Shown here: piece after piece, positions 8,737-18,844 of the stretch
Layout: each line of letters opens with the position of its first letter
How positions within the stretch are numbered: position 1 is the stretch's first letter
NCBI RefSeq assembly: GCF_020532725.1
Contig: NZ_JAJAVC010000003.1
Coordinates: forward strand, 248,001-312,000
Direction: 5' to 3'
Origin: Methylobacillus arboreus
Lineage (GTDB): Bacteria; Pseudomonadota; Gammaproteobacteria; Burkholderiales; Methylophilaceae
Length of the DNA: 64,000 nucleotides
The notes under the pieces: model-generated
Databases searched by the model: none
Told to the model about the DNA's origin: nothing
What the model saw: the letters and a program-made list of their open reading frames with translations, nothing else
Program-made: the position numbers and the translations under genes

Positions 8737-8809
8737 TATATTCAATTAATTGCATATTTAAATAAAATCAATATAATAATTTTTATATGGTATTAAATTT
8801 AATTTATTG

Positions 8810-9154
8810 ATGTCAAAACGCTCAAACTCTATTCTAGGCACCCATGATGAAGTATTGGCTTCCCTGGCGTTGCTCGGCCAGAGAATACATGCGCATCGCG
8901 TTGCGCAAGGCTGGACAATCAAGGATATGGCTGAGCGTTTGTTTTGCTCGCAGAATACCTATCGCGCCATTGAGGCCGGCAAGCCCACTGCCAGTATCGG
9001 CATTATTGCCAATGTATTATGGCTGTTTGGTCAAATCGATTCTCTCAATCATCTTGCGCCTCTTCCCTATCCGGCAACGGCTGCCAAGCGCGTCAGAAAA
9101 CCAGGCAGCCAGGCTGCACCTGGCACTATCAGCGAAGACGAACGTGAGTTCTGA
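8810..9154 (+). CDS. hipB: HipB-like antitoxin / XRE-family regulator
   Basis: 114 aa with a helix-turn-helix of the XRE/Cro type at about residues 18-62 (GQRIHAHRVAQGWTIKDMAE, then SQNTYRAIEAGKPTASIGII). ATG 8810 is chosen over the in-frame TTG one codon upstream; no strong ribosome binding site is seen. The C-terminus is a basic, Pro/Ala-rich tail. It overlaps the following hipA-like gene by 11 bases, the usual antitoxin-toxin arrangement. It would neutralise the kinase and repress the operon from the AT-rich region upstream. The symbol denotes the family, not orthology to E. coli hipB. Confidence 0.83.
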   Translation: MSKRSNSILGTHDEVLASLALLGQRIHAHRVAQGWTIKDMAERLFCSQNTYRAIEAGKPTASIGIIANVLWLFGQIDSLNHLAPLPYPATAAKRVRKPGSQAAPGTISEDEREF

Positions 9155-10388
9155 GCACAAACTGTATGTGGGGCTTGCTACCGCTGCCAAGCAGCCGCCA
9201 GTGGCCGTTGGGTTGCTGAAGATGTTACGCCGCGGCAATATCGAATCGGGGGAATACGCCTATGGCAAACAATACCTTGCTTCGCCATCCGCCATTGCAC
9301 TCAACCATGACTATCTGCCTTTAACATCGGGGATATTACCATTGCCCGGGCAGCGTCTGCGTGATGGGGGCGTCTTGCCCCTGACATTTAAAGATGCATT
9401 ACCTGATAGCTGGGGGCGACGAGTGCTTGAAGCTCAGCATGGCGGTCCTCTGGATGATCTTGATGTACTGCTAATGACCAATGAGGACCGGGTAGGCGCC
9501 CTGGTGTTCAGTGAAGCACTGCCGATCTCACTCGAGCATGACGAAGCTGCTCTGGTATCACTGGAGGCACTAGCCGACTCCGTGAGAAGTCTTGAGCTTG
9601 GCATGGAAGTGCCCCCCCAGATGCGCAGGCTGCTGCACAGGGGCGGTACGCTGGGAGGTGCCCGACCCAAGGCAACCTTCATTCATGATCAACGTCGATG
9701 GATTGCCAAGTTCCCTTCAGCAGCAGACACACACGATGTTGAGTTGCTGGAAATCGGCCTGCTGAAACTGGCATCCATGTGTGGCATAGAGGTATCTCCT
9801 GCACACCTGGTACCCATTCCCCATGGGCATGCCATCCTCATCCAGCGCTTTGATCGCCATGGGGCAATCGGGCAAGAAAGCCGACAGCATTATCTGTCGG
9901 CTGCGGCGTTGCTGAATGTATCTTATGAGACTGGCCTGGGCAGCTATGAAGAATTTGCGCAAGTGATTCGCAGGCTATCCATCAATCCACGCGAAGATCT
10001 GCACCAACTCTATCGTAGAATGATATTCAATCTGGTGGTGGACAATACAGACGATCACGTCAAGAATCATGGCATGCTGCATGTCGGCCATGGGCAATAT
10101 CGCCTTGCTCCGGCATTCGATATCGAAATGCAACTCAGGAACCTCGGTTACCAGGAACTTGCCATCACACCCGGTCAACAGCACTCCAGCATTCGCCTGG
10201 CATTGGAAGTATCACCAGCCTTCGGCATCAATCAACAGGATGCCGCAACCATCATTCAAGAGATTGAAACTACCGTACAGCAGCATCTCACTTCGATCGC
10301 TGCATCCTTTGGCGCAACACCCGAATTTCAATCAACAATTGGGCAATGCCTGAAACGGCAGCGTGAGATTATTCATGGCGTGGTGTAG
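9144..10388 (+). CDS. hipA: HipA-like serine/threonine kinase toxin
   Basis: 414 aa, close to E. coli HipA (440). The GTG at 9144 is chosen because homology begins there (SSEHKLYVGLA) and it overlaps the hipB end; the open frame extends further upstream only as an out-of-frame shadow of hipB. Visible motifs are the Gly-rich GGTLGGARPK (167-176), LIQRFDR, the catalytic loop NTDDHVKN (301-308) and the metal-binding PAFD (Asp 326). All key kinase residues appear present. E. coli HipA phosphorylates glutamyl-tRNA synthetase and causes growth arrest; the target here is unknown. Confidence 0.88.
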   Translation: MSSEHKLYVGLATAAKQPPVAVGLLKMLRRGNIESGEYAYGKQYLASPSAIALNHDYLPLTSGILPLPGQRLRDGGVLPLTFKDALPDSWGRRVLEAQHGGPLDDLDVLLMTNEDRVGALVFSEALPISLEHDEAALVSLEALADSVRSLELGMEVPPQMRRLLHRGGTLGGARPKATFIHDQRRWIAKFPSAADTHDVELLEIGLLKLASMCGIEVSPAHLVPIPHGHAILIQRFDRHGAIGQESRQHYLSAAALLNVSYETGLGSYEEFAQVIRRLSINPREDLHQLYRRMIFNLVVDNTDDHVKNHGMLHVGHGQYRLAPAFDIEMQLRNLGYQELAITPGQQHSSIRLALEVSPAFGINQQDAATIIQEIETTVQQHLTSIAASFGATPEFQSTIGQCLKRQREIIHGVV

Positions 10389-11446: not shown

Positions 11447-12448
11447 TCAGCGCGGATCGAAGCCGGGGTAGGCGGCGGCCAGGGCGCTCCAGGCTGCCTT
11501 CTGCGCATCAGTGATGGTGCCAGGCACGGCGATGTCCAGCTCCAGGTACAAATCGCCCGGGGCACTGGCCGAAGGAATGCCGCGCCCTTTCAGGCGCAAC
11601 TTGCGGCCGCTGCCGGAGCCGGCGGGCACGGTGACCTCGACCACGGCACCGTCGGGTGTAGTGACCTGTACGCTGCCGCCCAGCGAAGCTTCCCAGGGCG
11701 TGACGTATAAATTTCTCGTGACGTCGCGGCCATCGATGCGCCAGTGCGTGTCAGGACGGAAATGTACCTCCAGGAACAAGTCGCCCGCAGCGCCACCGCC
11801 GAAGCCGGGACTGCCTTGGCCCGTCAAGCGGATGAGTTGGCCTTCCTTCACGCCCTTCGGAATCTTGACTTGCAGCGTTCGCTCCTCGGGTACGGGGGGC
11901 TGGCCCTGTTCGTCCAGCCGTACGCCGTGCAGCGTGATGCTGCGCTCGGTGCCCTTGTAGGCGTCGATCAACTCCAGTTCAATACGGGCGTGGCGGTCCT
12001 CGCCGCGCATCTGGGTTGAGCCTTGGCCATGACGGCGGCCGGCTTGGAAGCGGCCGGCGCGGCCGAATAACTGCTCGAAGAAATCGCTGTATTCGCCGGC
12101 TTCGCTGCCGAACTGGCCATGAAAGGCGTGGCGGAAGGCCTCGGCATTCCCATCGCCGCCGGAGAACTCGAAGCCCTCGTTCCAGCCCGGGGGCGGCCGC
12201 ACATCGTCACCTGAGCGGGCGCCAGCCGCCCAGTTCTGCGCGCCCACGCTGTCGTAGGCCGCACGCTTCTCGGGGTCGGACAGTACGGTGTTGGCCTCGT
12301 TCACCTCGGCCATGCGCTCCGTGGCATCGGGTTCCTTGCTCACGTCGGGATGGTATTTGCGGGCCAGCCTGCGGAAGGCTTTCTTGATGTCGTCGGCGCT
12401 GGCTGATTTGTCCACGCCCAGGATCTGGTAGTAGTCCTTGAATTCCAT
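11447..12448 (-). CDS. cbpA: Curved DNA-binding protein / DnaJ-class co-chaperone CbpA
   Basis: 333 aa. The N-terminal J-domain (MEFKDYYQILGV...) has the HPD motif at 33-35. A Gly/Phe-rich linker (about 85-150) follows, then two C-terminal substrate-binding domains without the DnaJ zinc finger (IPKGVKEGQLIRLTGQG, LYVTPWEASLGG). It stimulates DnaK and binds curved DNA in E. coli. ATG 12448 has a GAGG ribosome binding site ten bases upstream; an in-frame upstream extension lacks support. It is followed by cbpM in the same operon. Confidence 0.94.
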   Translation of the reverse strand: MEFKDYYQILGVDKSASADDIKKAFRRLARKYHPDVSKEPDATERMAEVNEANTVLSDPEKRAAYDSVGAQNWAAGARSGDDVRPPPGWNEGFEFSGGDGNAEAFRHAFHGQFGSEAGEYSDFFEQLFGRAGRFQAGRRHGQGSTQMRGEDRHARIELELIDAYKGTERSITLHGVRLDEQGQPPVPEERTLQVKIPKGVKEGQLIRLTGQGSPGFGGGAAGDLFLEVHFRPDTHWRIDGRDVTRNLYVTPWEASLGGSVQVTTPDGAVVEVTVPAGSGSGRKLRLKGRGIPSASAPGDLYLELDIAVPGTITDAQKAAWSALAAAYPGFDPR

Positions 12449-12756
12449 AAAAACTTGCCTCGATGCGCTGCGGTGGATGGCTTTCCAGCCACACGGCAAC
12501 ATGCGTTGCGCGGAAAACAGCCTGGCCTAATCAAGGAACACCCAAATACCTATTCATGGATCTGGCTGTTACCTCAATAGCATGGCATTGGCCTGCAATG
12601 CATACAATTCGTCGCCTTTGCTTTAGGCCAGCCCTGACTTCCAGTTTCGCGCCTGTGCGCCGCGCTTGCCGTAAGGATGTGTCACTTCTGGATCGCTGCC
12701 GGTAGCATACTGGCCGAGGATGTGTTTGTCGAGGCTTGGGCGCAGTTGGCGGCTTA
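12449..12756. other. Gene-free spacer between mxaL and cbpA
   Basis: About 308 bp separating mxaL and cbpA, both on the minus strand. It should hold the mxaL 3' end and the cbpA promoter. I see no tRNA, no strong hairpin terminator and no convincing heat-shock promoter. An 80-codon plus-strand frame here has no recognisable features and looks spurious. Confidence 0.6.
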
Positions 12757-13731
12757 TTATGCCGCCTTGCGATGCAAGACGCGCTGGAGCAGCTTCCTCA
12801 ACCGTTGCGGGGTATAAGAGGCAAGCACCAATCCTCCAGCGACAAGCGCAAGCAGCCAGTCGATGTGCATGGGGGCGAAGTCGCGTCGGCTGGGCTTGAG
12901 TTTGTGCATGGCGGCTTTGACATCCTCGAAGCGGTCGCCGTTGACATAGGCAGCACCGATTTCATCGCTCAGCTCGAGCAGGTATTCCTCATCCAGCGTG
13001 GACTGGTAACGGTCGTTTTCTGTGGTCGCCGTGCCCTTGTCGCGCGTGCCGAGGTTTTGTTGTGAAATCTGGGCAACACCAGGTTGTAGTACGAAATTTT
13101 CTGCTGACCAGTAGCCCAATAGTTTGTTGTTTTCATCGTATTTCGGGATGGGGTGCGGTTGCTTGCTGCCGATGCCGACCAGCAGCCAGTCGCCGACTTT
13201 CTGGAAGTTGCTGAGTTCGCGGGTGTTGAAGGCATGCAGGCGCGGGGCTTCTTCGCCGTCGGTGAAGAAGATGGCCTGGGTGGGTTCGGGCATGGTGCGC
13301 AACAAGCGTCCCAGCGAGTCCACGCCTTCGCGCAGGCGGGTATTGCCGGACCAGGCTTGGCGCCATTCTGTGCGGGCGATGGTGTCCTGGATGGCGGCAT
13401 AGTTCTCGCAGACTTCGATCGGGGTGTAAAGCGCGGCGACACTGAGGCCGGAGAAAAAGGCCAGGCTGACACGGCTGCCGCAAGGCATGCTGGCAACAAG
13501 CTGATGTGCCAGGTGCTTGGTATATTCCAGGCGTGAAATATCCTCACCGCGCCACACCATGCCCTTGGTATTCATGCTCTGGCTGATGTCGATGACCAGC
13601 ATGGTGCTGTAGATATTGCGTGGCACGGGGATGGACGGCTTGAAGGCTGCAATCAGCAACAGTAGCAGCGCCAGCGCTGGCATTAGGGTGTCACGGTGGA
13701 GGAAGGGCCGTAGTCGCGTGAGTAGGCGCAT
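12757..13731 (-). CDS. mxaL: MxaL-like von Willebrand factor A protein
   Basis: 324 aa. An N-terminal membrane helix (about 16-34) leads into a VWA domain with the metal-binding motif DISQS (48-52), and a C-terminal helix (about 293-310) follows, so the domain faces the periplasm. As the last gene of an mxaR-S-A-C-K-L run it is assigned as MxaL, one of the accessory proteins for maturation or calcium insertion of PQQ methanol dehydrogenase in methylotrophs. It starts eight bases after mxaK. No mxaD/E/H gene follows; the next gene on this strand is cbpA. Confidence 0.85.
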   Translation of the reverse strand: MRLLTRLRPFLHRDTLMPALALLLLLIAAFKPSIPVPRNIYSTMLVIDISQSMNTKGMVWRGEDISRLEYTKHLAHQLVASMPCGSRVSLAFFSGLSVAALYTPIEVCENYAAIQDTIARTEWRQAWSGNTRLREGVDSLGRLLRTMPEPTQAIFFTDGEEAPRLHAFNTRELSNFQKVGDWLLVGIGSKQPHPIPKYDENNKLLGYWSAENFVLQPGVAQISQQNLGTRDKGTATTENDRYQSTLDEEYLLELSDEIGAAYVNGDRFEDVKAAMHKLKPSRRDFAPMHIDWLLALVAGGLVLASYTPQRLRKLLQRVLHRKAA

Positions 13732-13739
13732 GATGATGT

Positions 13740-14276
13740 TTATGGCAGCCCGACTGGAATGTTGCCCATGATCAGGCCGGGAGAATCTGACTCGCCAACG
13801 CCAGGCGTGGGGCTGGCAGGCAGCATGCTCAGCACGCGGTCCAGATTGTGGCGCGCATCCCAGAAGCTGTTGTCCAGACGCAGGGATTGCTCGTAGGCCG
13901 TGCGCGCCTGATTCAGGAGATATTCGGTCTCGTCGCGCACCGTGATGTCGCGGCCGTTGACTGCCAGCCCTCGCAGGAAGAAGATATTGCCGGTGTTGAA
14001 TTGCACCGCGGATTTCTGCGCGTCATCACCTTTCTCCAGCAATTGGCCGAATAGCTGTGTTGCCTCCTGGTATCGCCCATTGTGCGCTTGCCAGTAGGCC
14101 ACGGAAAATTTCGCTTCATAACTGTCCTGGCGCGTGGCGGGTGTCTTGCCTTCCTGGATTGCCTGGTTGAAAGCGCGGATGTCCTGGATTTGATAGGCCT
14201 GCCATGCGGCAACTCCGGCAGAGGCAAGCGCCAGGAGTGCCAGCCCCTGGGTCAGTTTCTTGGTGCTCAGTGCCAT
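13740..14276 (-). CDS. mxaK: MxaK-like membrane-anchored TPR protein
   Basis: 178 aa. One N-terminal membrane helix (about 9-26) is followed by a helical TPR-like region (AKFSVAYWQAHNGRYQEATQLF, then a repeat around AYEQSLRLDNSFWDARHNLDR). Position between two VWA proteins identifies it as MxaK, a methanol-oxidation accessory protein of unknown biochemical role. It overlaps the end of mxaC by ten bases, which suggests translational coupling. The conserved part ends near residue 155 and the tail is Pro/Gly-rich. Confidence 0.85.
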   Translation of the reverse strand: MALSTKKLTQGLALLALASAGVAAWQAYQIQDIRAFNQAIQEGKTPATRQDSYEAKFSVAYWQAHNGRYQEATQLFGQLLEKGDDAQKSAVQFNTGNIFFLRGLAVNGRDITVRDETEYLLNQARTAYEQSLRLDNSFWDARHNLDRVLSMLPASPTPGVGESDSPGLIMGNIPVGLP

Positions 14277-15247
14277 GTTCTTACCTCAATGAGTTTTGCC
14301 AACAACAGCAATGACAGCAGCGCTGCTGCAAGCAGATAGCAATAGGGTGAGAAATCACGTCCGGGAATTTCCTCTTGATAGCGGATGGGTTTCTTTTCCT
14401 TGCGGTTGATATCTTCAATTGCAGCAGCCAGCGATTTCGGGTCTTCGGCTTCATAGGCCTGGTAACCGGTACGCAGCGTCTTGAAGAAATCGTTAAGCTC
14501 AAGGGCTGCGGGCAGCGGTTGGTCTTCAGGCGGTTTGTAGCTTGTATCGAAGATACTGGTTGCGCCAGGCTGGCGCAGCACGATCCAGTACAAGGTCACG
14601 TTCATGCGTTCAAGCCAGTCGCGGATTTTCTGCTGGGTATTGGCGCCAATGCGTCCACCGCCATCGGAAAGCAGGATGATGGCACGCGAGCCTGAGTCCG
14701 GCGTTTTGTCGAATTGCGCTAAACCTGTGGTGAGGCCGCTGCCGATATTGGTCTGGAACAGGGCGGATCCGCCTGCCGCACGGATTGCGGCAAGGATGGC
14801 CTCACGGTTGTCCGTGAGCGGCAGCGCATGCATGGCCGAGTTGCTGAAGGTGACCATGCCGAACATGTCGTTGCTGCGCTCTTGCACAAATCGCGTGATG
14901 AGACGCTCTGCCGCTGCTGCCTTCGATTCACCGGCGACGCCGCTGGTTTCCGCGCCCGCGAACGGGTCGTCCATACTGGCGCTGCGGTCTATGACCAGCA
15001 CCAGTTGGGCACCCTGGCCGATGCGCTCGATGTATTGGGCATCGGTGGCCGGTCCGGCAGCACCCAGCAGCATGAAGCACAAGGCCAGCGCCGCGAGTAT
15101 CTTGAGCAATATGCCCAGCCATTCCGAAAGCCGGTCGCGTGGCAGCAGGCCGAGCCATGAGTAACTGCGGCTATGCCGACGGTCCAGCAGCAAAGGCACC
15201 AGGCTGAGTGGTAGCAGCATAAGCAGCCAGGCATGCGTGAAGTTCAC
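14267..15247 (-). CDS. mxaC: MxaC-like von Willebrand factor A protein
   Basis: 326 aa. The membrane helices at about 7-21 and 46-64, a VWA domain with DRSAS (87-91) and downstream metal-site residues (TNIGSGLTTG, LLSDGGGRIG), and a C-terminal helix (about 303-320) give the BatA/BatB-like layout. In methylotrophs MxaC is needed for active methanol dehydrogenase. The start codon directly abuts the mxaA stop. It forms a pair with the second VWA protein MxaL. Confidence 0.88.
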   Translation of the reverse strand: MNFTHAWLLMLLPLSLVPLLLDRRHSRSYSWLGLLPRDRLSEWLGILLKILAALALCFMLLGAAGPATDAQYIERIGQGAQLVLVIDRSASMDDPFAGAETSGVAGESKAAAAERLITRFVQERSNDMFGMVTFSNSAMHALPLTDNREAILAAIRAAGGSALFQTNIGSGLTTGLAQFDKTPDSGSRAIILLSDGGGRIGANTQQKIRDWLERMNVTLYWIVLRQPGATSIFDTSYKPPEDQPLPAALELNDFFKTLRTGYQAYEAEDPKSLAAAIEDINRKEKKPIRYQEEIPGRDFSPYCYLLAAALLSLLLLAKLIEVRTWH

Positions 15248-16201
15248 TTACTTCATCCCTCGCTCAATGTCGCGGCAGCGGCGGCTGAACTGGCGTAACC
15301 ATGGATTAGGATTGTCTGGCGTGCCTTGTTCGGCGCTATCGAAAAACACTGCCCGCGACAGCCGGAAGAAGCGTTCGATATCATCCTTGAGTGGAGTGAA
15401 TGCAGGCTTGAGTTGGATGATCTCGTCGGCGCTGAATACGCTTTGACCGCAGCTTTGCTTGAAGGCCTGGTGTAGCCTGCTGATTGCTGTTTCCAGGCCA
15501 GTGTTATCCGCGCTGGTTTTCCTGACCTCCCGGTAGGCTCTGGCAAACGGCCCGCCCATGCGCGGCAGCCATGCACGGTTGCCCAGAATATATAACAAGC
15601 CCAGCAGGCTGAGACTTAGTATGGCAAGTGCTGCAACCATGGTCTGGCGGTGCTTGTCAGCGCTGATGAGTAATGGGCCGCGTAGTGGGCTCATGTCTTT
15701 GCTGACATTGACTGAGCCATAGACCGCAAGCGGCGAGATGCGGAAATTCCAGCTGGGGATGCGCACCTGGAACTGTTTGCCATTGCCTGAAAATTTCACG
15801 AATTCGGGAGGCAGCGCGGCCGGTTTGGCGACGATGCTGGAGGTAAATACCTGGTAGCTCAGTTCCAGCGTGTAGATATTCTGGCCGTCGCGGTGCGACT
15901 CGCTGAGCTTGCTGGCATAGATCTCTATGCCTTGCTCCTTGTTGCGGTAGCGCTTCTGGTTGCCGGGGATGGGCAGGGAGGTCGGCAAAATCTGGTATTG
16001 GTCGGAGACCTTGAGCGTGACTGTGCGCGTCAGGATGTCGCCGATGTGGTAGCCAACCTCGCGCGCCGGGTTGTTCGCGGTGATAGTGACTGGCGGCAGT
16101 TCTGCGGCCTTGCCGGTTTCATCGGCAGACCATGCCAGGGGACTGGCCAGGCAGAGTACCAGCAGCAATATGTTCAATCTATGGTATCCAAGCATGATCA
16201 T
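15248..16201 (-). CDS. mxaA: MxaA, methanol dehydrogenase calcium-insertion accessory protein
   Basis: 317 aa. A signal peptide (about 8-25, ending LAWSA) precedes a periplasmic beta-rich domain, one membrane helix (about 207-225) and a cytoplasmic helical tail. MxaA is reported to help calcium insertion into methanol dehydrogenase. ATG 16201 overlaps the mxaS stop by four bases (ATGA); ATG 16195 is also possible. The name rests mostly on cluster order and topology. Confidence 0.84.
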   Translation of the reverse strand: MIMLGYHRLNILLLVLCLASPLAWSADETGKAAELPPVTITANNPAREVGYHIGDILTRTVTLKVSDQYQILPTSLPIPGNQKRYRNKEQGIEIYASKLSESHRDGQNIYTLELSYQVFTSSIVAKPAALPPEFVKFSGNGKQFQVRIPSWNFRISPLAVYGSVNVSKDMSPLRGPLLISADKHRQTMVAALAILSLSLLGLLYILGNRAWLPRMGGPFARAYREVRKTSADNTGLETAISRLHQAFKQSCGQSVFSADEIIQLKPAFTPLKDDIERFFRLSRAVFFDSAEQGTPDNPNPWLRQFSRRCRDIERGMK

Positions 16202-17058
16202 TTCCTGACAAACTGGTAGAAATATTCGGTCAGGGCATCCGCATCGAAGCCTTGCTCAATGAAGAATGGCGGCAGGTCGTAGCGCATGAACAGTTGGTTG
16301 AGCGCTTCATGGCGTTCTGCAAATGCAGCCTGGATGCGGGCATGGGTGGCTTTGCGCAATAACAAGGTGCGTTTCTCGCCGCTTTCGCTATCGGTGACAT
16401 GGGTCAGGCCGAATTCAGGGATGGCTTTGTATTCAGCTGTATCCCACAGCACAACCGGCACCACGTGGTGCCGTTGCAGGGAGATCAGCGCTTCTTCCAG
16501 AATGTCCAGCGGCATGTGGAAATCCGACACCAGCAGCACCAGGGAACGTTCGCGGGGCAGGTGATGGCTGATTTGGAGGATGCCGTTGCCGCCAACATGC
16601 GGGGGGCGATAGTGTTGCAGCCTTTCTGCCAGCATGTAGGCACTTTGAACCCTGACACTGGAGGGGCTCAGCCATTCCTCGAGGATATCCTCGTCAAAGC
16701 CGATAAAACCGAACGGATCGTGGACGCGTGAAGCAGACTGTGCAGCAGATGCAGTGATTTCTGCGGCAATCGCCAGTTTGTTGAAGTGGCCGGAAAATCC
16801 CATGGAGCCTGACAAGTCACAGGCGACAAAAATGGGAACGGCACTGCGCTGGTTGTAGATGCGCACATAGACCTGCTCCATCGGGTCGCGCAGGCTGAGA
16901 CGCATATCGATACGGCGCGGGTCGGGGTAAGCGATCAAGGGGGCGTGCCCGACAAAATCCATCCCCAGCCCGCGCTGGGAGCTGGCATGGCGGCCAGGAT
17001 GGCGGCCGCGTGAGCGCCAGCCGATCTGGTAGGTGAATTCCTTGGCAAGCGCATTCAT
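16198..17058 (-). CDS. mxaS: MxaS, DUF58-type protein
   Basis: 286 aa from ATG 17058; a longer in-frame extension is rejected because it would run back through the end of mxaR. The soluble protein has a DUF58/VWA-like core with DLSGS (81-85) and FHMPLDILEEAL. In MoxR-type systems such proteins act together with the AAA+ ATPase (here MxaR) and the VWA proteins. The start is four bases after the mxaR stop and the end overlaps mxaA by four. Confidence 0.88.
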   Translation of the reverse strand: MNALAKEFTYQIGWRSRGRHPGRHASSQRGLGMDFVGHAPLIAYPDPRRIDMRLSLRDPMEQVYVRIYNQRSAVPIFVACDLSGSMGFSGHFNKLAIAAEITASAAQSASRVHDPFGFIGFDEDILEEWLSPSSVRVQSAYMLAERLQHYRPPHVGGNGILQISHHLPRERSLVLLVSDFHMPLDILEEALISLQRHHVVPVVLWDTAEYKAIPEFGLTHVTDSESGEKRTLLLRKATHARIQAAFAERHEALNQLFMRYDLPPFFIEQGFDADALTEYFYQFVRK

Positions 17059-17062
17059 GGGG

Positions 17063-18079
17063 TCAGGCCGCACTGATGGTGCGGATGGTCTGGCTGAGCA
17101 GCTCGCGCGCGATTTCGGTACGGCGCATTTCATAGATGGGATTGAATACCATGCGGTGCGCAATGGTTTCGTGGAACACGGTATGAATATCCTCCGGCAG
17201 TACTGCCTCGCGCCCGTTGAGCCAGGCGTTCACGCGCGCGGCACGCATCATCATGGCAATGCCGCGCGGGCTGGCGCCTGCAATCACCAGGCGCTTGATG
17301 TCCACGCCTTCCACCTTGAGCCCGTAATCGGCCGGGCTGCGGGTTGCCAGCCACAAATCCAGTGTGTAGCGGCGCAAGGTGGGGCTGGCCTGGATGCTGG
17401 ACTGGATCAGAGCGGCTACTTCGTTGAGGCCGTCAAACTGCAGGATCCCAGGCGCAACCTTGTCCACCAGGGCATCCACGTCATGGAAGCGGGTATCAAA
17501 AATCAGGGATTCCATCGTGTCGATATTGGCAGGCACCACGATGGGGATTTCCATCATGAAGCGGTCGCGCGCTGCTGAAGGAATTTCAAAGGTTTCTTCT
17601 TTTTCCACCTGGTTGCGGTCTGCAAACACCAGCATATGCGGAAAATGATGTTCACGGTTGAAGGCCGATAGCGTGCGTTCAGCCATCACGCGCAGTAGCA
17701 GCGAGTGTACTTGCGGACGGGCGCGGTTGATTTCGTTGAAGAAAAATACCGACAGGTTGGTGCCGTGTGACAACAATGGCCCTGGGCTCACATGCGGGCG
17801 TCCGTCATCGCCGAGGTAGGTATGGTAGACCAGGTCGTTGGGCATCAGGTCTATGGTGCCTTCCACCCGCTGGTAACCGCCACCGATGCCGCGCGTGAAT
17901 GCGCGTAACAGTGTGGTCTTGCCCACGCCGACATCGCCTTCCAGCAGTACATGGCCACGCGCAAAGATGGCCGTGGTGATCAGGCGTACCGCGCCAGCCT
18001 GGCCGACAACAACCTGATTGACTTCATTTTCCAGTTGCAATGCCTGCGCACGCCAGTCGTCCAGTTGACGGTCACTCAT
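17063..18079 (-). CDS. mxaR: MxaR, MoxR-family AAA+ ATPase
   Basis: 338 aa. Walker A is GDVGVGKT (48-55). The Walker B region reads VFFFNEINRA, with Asn 115 where MoxR proteins usually have Asp before the catalytic Glu 116. RNQVEKEETFEIPSAARDRF forms the sensor/arginine-finger region and SPRGIAMMMRAARV the sensor 2. MoxR ATPases act as chaperones; MxaR heads the accessory operon for periplasmic PQQ methanol dehydrogenase. The promoter should lie in the 249-bp gap shared with the divergent fabA. Confidence 0.92.
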   Translation of the reverse strand: MSDRQLDDWRAQALQLENEVNQVVVGQAGAVRLITTAIFARGHVLLEGDVGVGKTTLLRAFTRGIGGGYQRVEGTIDLMPNDLVYHTYLGDDGRPHVSPGPLLSHGTNLSVFFFNEINRARPQVHSLLLRVMAERTLSAFNREHHFPHMLVFADRNQVEKEETFEIPSAARDRFMMEIPIVVPANIDTMESLIFDTRFHDVDALVDKVAPGILQFDGLNEVAALIQSSIQASPTLRRYTLDLWLATRSPADYGLKVEGVDIKRLVIAGASPRGIAMMMRAARVNAWLNGREAVLPEDIHTVFHETIAHRMVFNPIYEMRRTEIARELLSQTIRTISAA

Positions 18080-18328
18080 GTGGTCGATTCCAGTAGTTAA
18101 GGTTGGGTTGGTGGGGAAAATTTCCCGTATGGTATGGGTTTTAATTCATAGTGTAAACAGATCTGTATAGTTTGAGTGCAGGTCTGATGTATTAGCATTA
18201 AAGGCATACTACAATCATGGAAATAGGGGTGAACTTGGCGAGATTTCTTAACACTTTCTTTGCTTAGGGCTTTTGTTAAATAGCAATTCAGGCGAAAATA
18301 ACGGGATTGATAAGTACAGAATAACTAA
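18080..18328. promoter_or_regulatory. Divergent promoter region mxaR / fabA
   Basis: A 249-bp intergenic region that must drive mxaRSACKL leftward and fabAB rightward. It contains the perfect palindrome ACAGATCTGT (18157-18166), which could be an operator, and AT-rich stretches. No individual -35/-10 pair can be assigned with confidence. Confidence 0.5.
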
Positions 18329-18844
18329 ATGCAAAAACAGAATAGTTTTACCTTTGAAGAGTTGCTTTCCTGTGGGCGTGGCGAAATGTTCGGCGAAGGT
18401 AATGCGCAATTGCCCTTGCCACCGATGTTGATGTTTGACCGTATCGTCTCCATTACAGAAGATGGAGGCCAATATGGTCACGGGCAGATCGTGGCTGAGC
18501 TTGATGTCAGGCCGGATCTCTGGTTCTTTAACTGTCATTTCGAGGGCGACCCCGTGATGCCGGGTTGCCTGGGTCTTGACGCTATGTGGCAACTGGTAGG
18601 TTTCTATCTGGGCTGGATGGGCGGTAAGGGCCGTGGACGCGCATTGGGCTCGGGCGAGGTAAAATTTACCGGCCAGGTATTGCCAACCGGCAAGCTGATT
18701 ACCTACCGCATCGATTTGAAACGCGTGATCATGCGCAAACTGGTAATGGGTATTGCCGATGCCCATATGGAAATTGACGGGCGTGAGATTTACGCTGCCA
18801 ATGATCTACGGGTTGGCCTGTTTACACGCACCGATAATTTCTAG
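18329..18844 (+). CDS. fabA: 3-hydroxydecanoyl-ACP dehydratase/isomerase
   Basis: 171 aa, the length of E. coli FabA, which dehydrates 3-hydroxydecanoyl-ACP and isomerises the product to start unsaturated fatty acid synthesis. The catalytic His 70 ([15 protein letters not shown]) and Asp 84 (LGLDAMWQL) are present at the E. coli numbering. fabB follows 58 bp downstream, giving the classical anaerobic unsaturated fatty acid pair. Confidence 0.97.

Follow-up and report, generated by a model that had tools for sequence, protein, structure and literature searches.

A 64,000-nucleotide stretch of Methylobacillus arboreus DNA (hereafter the window; C11:248001-312000 of a 3.05-Mb genome in 17 contigs) carries the accessory genes mxaR, S, A, C, K and L (RSACKL) apart from any methanol dehydrogenase (MDH) gene, raising the question of which enzyme they serve. 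In Methylorubrum extorquens AM1 and others, mxaRSACKL(D) lies after mxaFJGI, and the window set has the same six genes in the same order. The original prediction offered two clients, an unlinked MxaFI (the calcium enzyme) or a lanthanide XoxF enzyme. The reading we favour, with moderate confidence, is that the window operon is the Methylophilaceae core paralogue of MxaRSACKL and that it matures lanthanide XoxF. Distribution, phylogeny and gene linkage form the basis on which XoxF is most likely the client.

Three RSACKL operons and their distribution in Methylophilaceae

The original prediction described a complete, closely overlapping R-S-A-C-K-L set at 12757-18079, with fabA diverging upstream of mxaR, cbpA rather than mxaD after mxaL, and no mxaFJGI alongside. 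This description holds in full. The window open reading frame (ORF) list places the six ORFs there on the minus strand, the junctions between them varying between 10 bases of overlap and a gap of 8 bases, and fabB accompanies fabA. A search of the genome located mxaFJGI at C11:79795-83405, approximately 170 kb from the window operon, where mxaF-J-G-I-R-S-A-C-K-L-D runs unbroken in one cluster and the next long ORF past mxaD lies on the opposite strand. This cluster holds the single MxaI gene (C11:83148) and the single MxaF gene (C11:79864) of the genome, MxaF being distinguished from other pyrroloquinoline quinone (PQQ) dehydrogenases by its neighbours and metal-site motif. Because mxaFJGI carries its own full RSACKLD, the window set is a paralogue, the case that the original prediction had named as its refutation. 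The proposal that it serves an unlinked mxaFI lacking a set of its own loses its point and was rejected.

A third R-S-A-C-K-L operon is present at C3:255529-260813, between genes for a PEP-CTERM protein and a likely sodium/solute symporter; the fourth MoxR match in the genome reaches only 32% identity. All three operons are intact. The names mxaR to mxaL are used here because the window genes are homologous, in the same order, to the genome's own complete mxaFJGIRSACKLD. Domains and main motifs are those of the mxaFI-linked copy, at protein identities of 58% (R), 36% (S), 23% (A), 38% (C), 24% (K) and 28% (L), and the window proteins are closer to the third copy (63, 42, 47 and 38% for R, S, C and L). 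In addition to MxaF, five PQQ dehydrogenases of the genome exceeded the cut-off. All are XoxF-type, with the metal-site motifs DEWDYDG, DEWDFDA and DLYDYDG, where MxaF has DEWDFAG; the Asp that replaces Ala at this position we take to be the lanthanide signature of XoxF. One of these genes (locus L022) is accompanied by xoxJ and a cytochrome match, another (L019) by a cytochrome match only.

Relationships among the operons were assessed in a rooted tree of MxaR plus MxaS from 170 operons (treekit 'quick', with the Shimodaira-Hasegawa-like approximate likelihood ratio test, SH-aLRT; support values taken after re-rooting). The window copy falls within a clade of 88 tips (support 99) and the third copy within one of 37 tips (100). 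These two clades group together (100), apart from the 17 tips of the mxaFI-linked operons (the mxa clade; 96). By this tree, the window set did not arise through recent duplication of the mxaFI set. For counting, 140 operon loci from family genomes (not all copies) were typed by best BLAST hit to the copies of the window genome and the typing was cross-checked against the tree, giving, own copies included, 89 window, 37 third and 17 mxa loci. Genome G053 has a typed operon from each of the three clades (L044-L046). Two loci typed as window (L081 and L088) stand beside the third clade in the tree and are left out where n = 87. They are divergent RSACKL operons, sisters of the third clade, and possibly represent a fourth type.

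Almost all rows of the three clades have Walker A, Walker B and the first VWA metal motif, the lowest count being 87/89. Walker A of MxaR reads GDVGVGKT at 87 of the 89 window-typed loci and, with a diagnostic Gly, GGVGVGKT at 37/37 third-clade loci. At window-typed loci, the DxSxS motif is present in MxaS (89/89) and MxaC (87/87), as is the first VWA metal motif of MxaL (86/86). A looser pattern for the later VWA metal site was matched in MxaS at 89/89 window, 37/37 third and 15/17 mxa loci, in MxaC at 68/87, 35/37 and 17/17, and in MxaL at 39/86, 37/37 and 9/17. Walker B of MxaR is FFFNEIN in all three clades (L017, L020 and the window); Walker B usually has Asp where MxaR has Asn. The ratio of nonsynonymous to synonymous substitution rates (dN/dS) between congeners was 0.015-0.19 over the three operons, and 0.06-0.19 for the window operon against two congeners, values that are rough because dS was often near or above 1. 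A decayed duplicate was rejected on the grounds of the intact motifs and a dN/dS well below 1. It is likewise very improbable that the operon is a redundant duplicate of the mxaFI-linked one, with little function. Three copies do share one genome, but the window copy is not recent (23-58% identity), its rough dN/dS is low and its clade is retained in genomes of 1.1-1.4 Mb.

All six genes were found at 86 of the 89 window-typed loci, the other three being cut by contig ends, and the arrangement is therefore not a product of chance. Among 100 sampled Methylophilaceae genomes, MxaS was detected in 97, MxaI in 31 and a PQQ-MDH in 99; for the 81 genomes of good quality the counts were 81, 29 and 81. 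Completeness is 48-87% in the three genomes that lack MxaS. MxaS occurs without MxaI in 52 of the 81 good-quality genomes, 40 of these having a single MxaS. Single-MxaS genomes number 53 in the whole sample, and 47 were typed (the remaining six belong to one genus): 46 carry the window clade and one, G021, the mxa clade. A window-clade copy was present in 42 of the 44 multi-MxaS genomes, the other two being untyped for it, and in 88 of 89 typed family genomes. The window clade is the family-core copy and usually the sole copy where MxaI is absent. Because it persists in nearly every relative, including those that lack the calcium enzyme, the lanthanide enzyme is its more likely client.

The genomic site is also conserved. 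The operon diverges from fabA at 70/89 window-typed loci (70/87 after tree reassignment), including in 1.3-Mb genomes, whilst cbpA follows it, within 1-3 kb of downstream DNA, at 1/89, the window itself. The mxa-clade operons are preceded by mxaI, J and G and followed by mxaD in 17/17 cases. Unlike such mxaFJGI-linked sets, the window set has neither mxaFJGI nor mxaD beside it and is kept where MxaI is absent, which sets it apart from a set dedicated to MxaFI; it also belongs to a separate clade and bears an operator-like repeat (see below).

These counts bear on the possibility that MxaFI and XoxF are both matured by the window operon, as a general or backup set maintained for dosage or for differing growth conditions. 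We regard this as rather unlikely. It would fit the identical gene order and intact main motifs of all three operons, and G021 manages with an mxa-clade set alone despite two other PQQ-MDH matches. However, those 40 of 52 MxaI-less genomes have a single MxaS and typed single copies are of the window clade in 46/47, whilst the window and third operons form a separate branch and share a repeat that the mxa-linked operons lack.

Returning to XoxF as the client, the same 52 MxaI-less genomes averaged 4.58 PQQ-MDH matches where at least two MxaS were present (n = 12) versus 1.85 with one MxaS (n = 40), counted as match rows in which fragments may count twice. The association of PQQ-MDH with extra RSACKL had p = 1e-5, and a partial correlation given genome size of 0.39 (p = 0.005), in tests that ignore kinship. 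In genome G060 (L065, 197-7831), a xoxF with the lanthanide Asp lies directly upstream of a third-clade RSACKL on the same strand, and at L282 and L283 a xoxF lies approximately 10 kb beyond fabB.

An inverted repeat shared by the window and third operons

Alignment of the fabA-mxaR gap of the window with those of four congeners revealed an 18-bp inverted repeat 74-91 bp upstream of mxaR (Table 1), which we propose as an operator. A position weight matrix (PWM) of the site (consensus GTATACAGATCTGTATAC) gave no site of at least 12 in five shuffles of the window. Searched within 400 bp upstream of mxaR at a score of at least 20, the repeat was found at 66/89 window-typed loci (66/87 tree-corrected), 9/37 third-clade loci and 0/17 mxa loci. 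A score of 14-20 was obtained for one third-clade locus, and shuffled regions yielded no site at 14. A further third-clade site (L035, score 29.9) falls outside the nine because the ORF start was called too far upstream. When the matrix was built from window-clade sites alone, the result was again 9/37 for the third clade (scores 23-28) and 0/17 for mxa.

Within the 218 kb scanned of the window's own genome, sites of the repeat scoring at least 12 occur only at the window and third operons (the latter at L020:10498). Across 3.59 Mb of loci (overlaps between them counted), 157 of the 178 sites of at least 14 that were classed lie at an mxaR gene, and three further sites have no ORF start in reach. 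The repeat was not found in 18 order-level and eight outgroup loci (best score 8.3; the outgroup flanks are short), nor at any of the 11 window-clade loci of groups g13 and g15 (small genomes) for which upstream DNA was available. A predicted mxaR promoter, TTTACA-17-TACCAT, has its -35 element overlapping the repeat, and is weak on its own since one such promoter was found against 0.9 expected.

We considered whether the repeat might belong to fabA alone, and rejected this. Of 17 window-clade loci without detected fabA, ten keep the repeat, although fabA may be hidden in some of the 17 (for example L136 and L144, which end within approximately 0.6 kb upstream of mxaR). Third-clade operons also carry the repeat, which is missing from 14 of the 70 loci that have fabA.

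Some further sites were noted. At L095:373 and L097:10442 (Methylovorus-type), a second strong site stands where the gene for a small membrane-like protein begins, approximately 2 kb from the third-clade operon, and tandem weaker sites at L099:583-602 have a gene of similar appearance nearby. A weak repeat-like site (L021:9984, score 9.8) 166 bp upstream of a xoxF is too weak to use; it may place xoxF under the regulator of the repeat, but could be due to chance.

XoxF as the probable client of the window operon

An order sample of 300 genomes and a phylum sample of 393 extended the comparison beyond the family. In the order sample, MxaS was detected in 27 genomes, nine in the family and 18 outside it. 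TIGR03075 is present in 18/18 of the latter (65/291 genomes have it; p = 2e-13, uncorrected for kinship), and MxaI in 0/18. In seven of the 18, from three genera, RSACKL and a xoxF are separated by approximately 10 kb or less. Five of these genomes, all from one genus, have xoxF-xoxJ-mxaD convergent to RSACKL, one has xoxF directly downstream of mxaL and one has it approximately 9 kb away. The lanthanide Asp is present in the six linked xoxF genes whose motif was read, the xoxF of L264 being cut by a contig end. Several of the remaining 11 loci end near the operon.

Beck et al. 2014 report two to four mxaRSACKL copies per Methylophilaceae genome, of which the mxaFJGI-linked copy alone has mxaD; they describe two strains that lack mxaFJGI and have two copies, and count RSACKL in the family core together with XoxF (PMC4109929). 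Methylotenera strains JLW8 and 301 have no mxaFJGI and two RSACKL sets, and grow on methanol plates with lanthanum (PMC4109929); pelagic Methylophilaceae are described with XoxF4-1 only (PMC6794327). Both sets of data are consistent with the XoxF reading. The window operon is one of the extra clusters that Beck et al. 2014 had already published, and whose location they describe as not strictly conserved (PMC4109929), as compared with 70/87 loci of the window clade next to fabAB here. Our literature search, of listings and paper passages, returned no paper on the clade structure, the fixed fabAB site or the repeat of the extra RSACKL operons. In Sphaerotilus genomes that have no MxaFI genes, mxa accessory genes lie beside an XoxF5-type MDH and are reported as mxa-cluster fragments (PMC13300288); the present analysis deals with clades and a candidate operator.

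A number of observations weigh against XoxF as the client. The five xoxF-type genes of the window genome are on other contigs, with no physical linkage to the window operon. G021 (L114), the only typed genome of the family to lack a window-clade operon, has an mxa-clade operon only, alongside two non-mxa PQQ-MDH matches, and G039 (85% complete, 480 contigs) has MxaS and no PQQ-MDH at the cut-off used. The repeat is absent from 21/87 window-clade and most third-clade loci, and the grouping of 17/18 order-level operons with the window and third clades, apart from mxa, has a support of only 74. A clear xoxF with xoxJ was present in eight of the 18 MxaS-negative order genomes read (19 PQQ alcohol dehydrogenase loci; 47 such genomes in all). 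XoxF therefore does not need RSACKL everywhere, and the proposition that it always does was rejected. In the phylum sample, MxaI occurs in nine genomes with MxaS within 2 kb in 9/9, making association with MxaFI the wider rule; just two genomes, both of Burkholderiales, have MxaS and no MxaI. According to a review, XoxF does not require mxaACKLD and mxaRSEH (PMC11845868), the whole mxa cluster of M. extorquens AM1 is reported to fall with mxaF (PMC6414531), and several Mxa proteins of a Methylosinus-type methanotroph fall with lanthanide (PMC12482762). AM1 and this methanotroph lie outside Methylophilaceae. The XoxF option of the original prediction is thus favoured by distribution, tree and linkage, and is tempered by the xoxF genomes without an MxaS match.

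Part of this evidence might point to a client other than methanol dehydrogenase, such as a different complex of the periplasm or membrane. MoxR/VWA systems serve varied clients (PMC3893208), the fixed neighbour of the window clade is fabAB, and the MxaS-negative genomes with xoxF, as well as G039, would be accommodated. We nevertheless judge such a client improbable, given that a PQQ alcohol dehydrogenase accompanies MxaS in 27/27 order-sample and 96/97 family genomes (the exception, G039, being a broken assembly) and that xoxF is physically linked in the seven order-level genomes described above.

If XoxF is the client, a mechanism may be sketched from related systems. RavA-ViaA and other MoxR/VWA pairs likewise combine a MoxR ATPase with a partner in chaperone-like maturation of enzyme complexes (PMC3893208); unlike RavA-ViaA, the window operon joins two VWA proteins, a DUF58 protein, a TPR protein and MxaA. 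By analogy with such chaperone systems, MxaR would hydrolyse ATP in the cytoplasm, and MxaS, C and L could use their VWA metal sites to couple MxaR to the membrane and periplasm together with MxaA and K. The assembled machine may then help to load metal and/or PQQ into methanol dehydrogenase. One of the three operons would act for MxaFI and the other two (window and C3), as a separate branch, for XoxF enzymes, with one regulator probably controlling the window and third operons where both bear the repeat, separately from the mxaFI set. We advance only tentatively the broader idea that RSACKL in this order is at root a XoxF machine, with two XoxF-side operons under one regulator binding GTATACAGATCTGTATAC and a third set separately regulated for the calcium enzyme.

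Such a role, if true, would run counter to the notion that XoxF can do without Mxa accessory proteins, at any rate where the XoxF enzymes of Methylophilaceae are concerned. Were a dedicated RSACKL set to mature XoxF in this family, the standard assignment of these genes to the calcium enzyme would not hold for a large and abundant group. With the three-clade scheme annotators can separate the sets, and the shared repeat offers a handle on the regulator.

Genes and neighbours of the window operon

The features of the operon and its surroundings are collected in Table 1. The mxaS start was set by match with relatives, the ORF list containing longer starts. By MxaS, the nearest named relatives are Methylobacillus species (83-85% identical). 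A scan against NCBIfam returned no specific model for the six window Mxa proteins.

Table 1. Positions of the window operon, its predicted control elements and flanking genes (numbered from the first letter of the window)
Feature	Position	Strand	Description	Basis
mxaR	17063..18079	-	MoxR-type AAA+ ATPase, window ('core') clade	PF07726 (AAA_3/MoxR) and AAA lid
mxaS	16198..17058	-	DUF58	PF01882
mxaA	15248..16201	-		homology and gene order; without Pfam match
mxaC	14267..15247	-	VWA, BatA-like	PF13519
mxaK	13740..14276	-	weak TPR	PF07719 below cut-off; homology and order
mxaL	12757..13731	-	VWA	PF13519
Inverted repeat, 18 bp	18153..18170	-	CTATACAGATCTGTTTAC (mxaR strand), proposed operator	five-locus alignment; PWM score 27.8
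Predicted mxaR promoter	18129..18157	-	-35 overlapping repeat	consensus scan
fabA	18329..18844	+	divergent neighbour marking the conserved site of the window clade	TIGR01749 over cut-off
cbpA	11447-12502	same as mxaL	after mxaL

The AlphaFold2 model of MxaA (mean predicted local distance difference test, pLDDT, 81; predicted template modelling score, pTM, 0.41) comprises a beta-rich part, a long probable membrane helix and a helical C-terminal part. Foldseek returned weak matches to it, with a template modelling score by query of at most 0.23 among the 50 matches listed and no useful fold match. Elsewhere in the window, at 8807-10388, a helix-turn-helix-like ORF overlaps a HipA-like protein (PF07804), possibly constituting a HipBA toxin-antitoxin pair.

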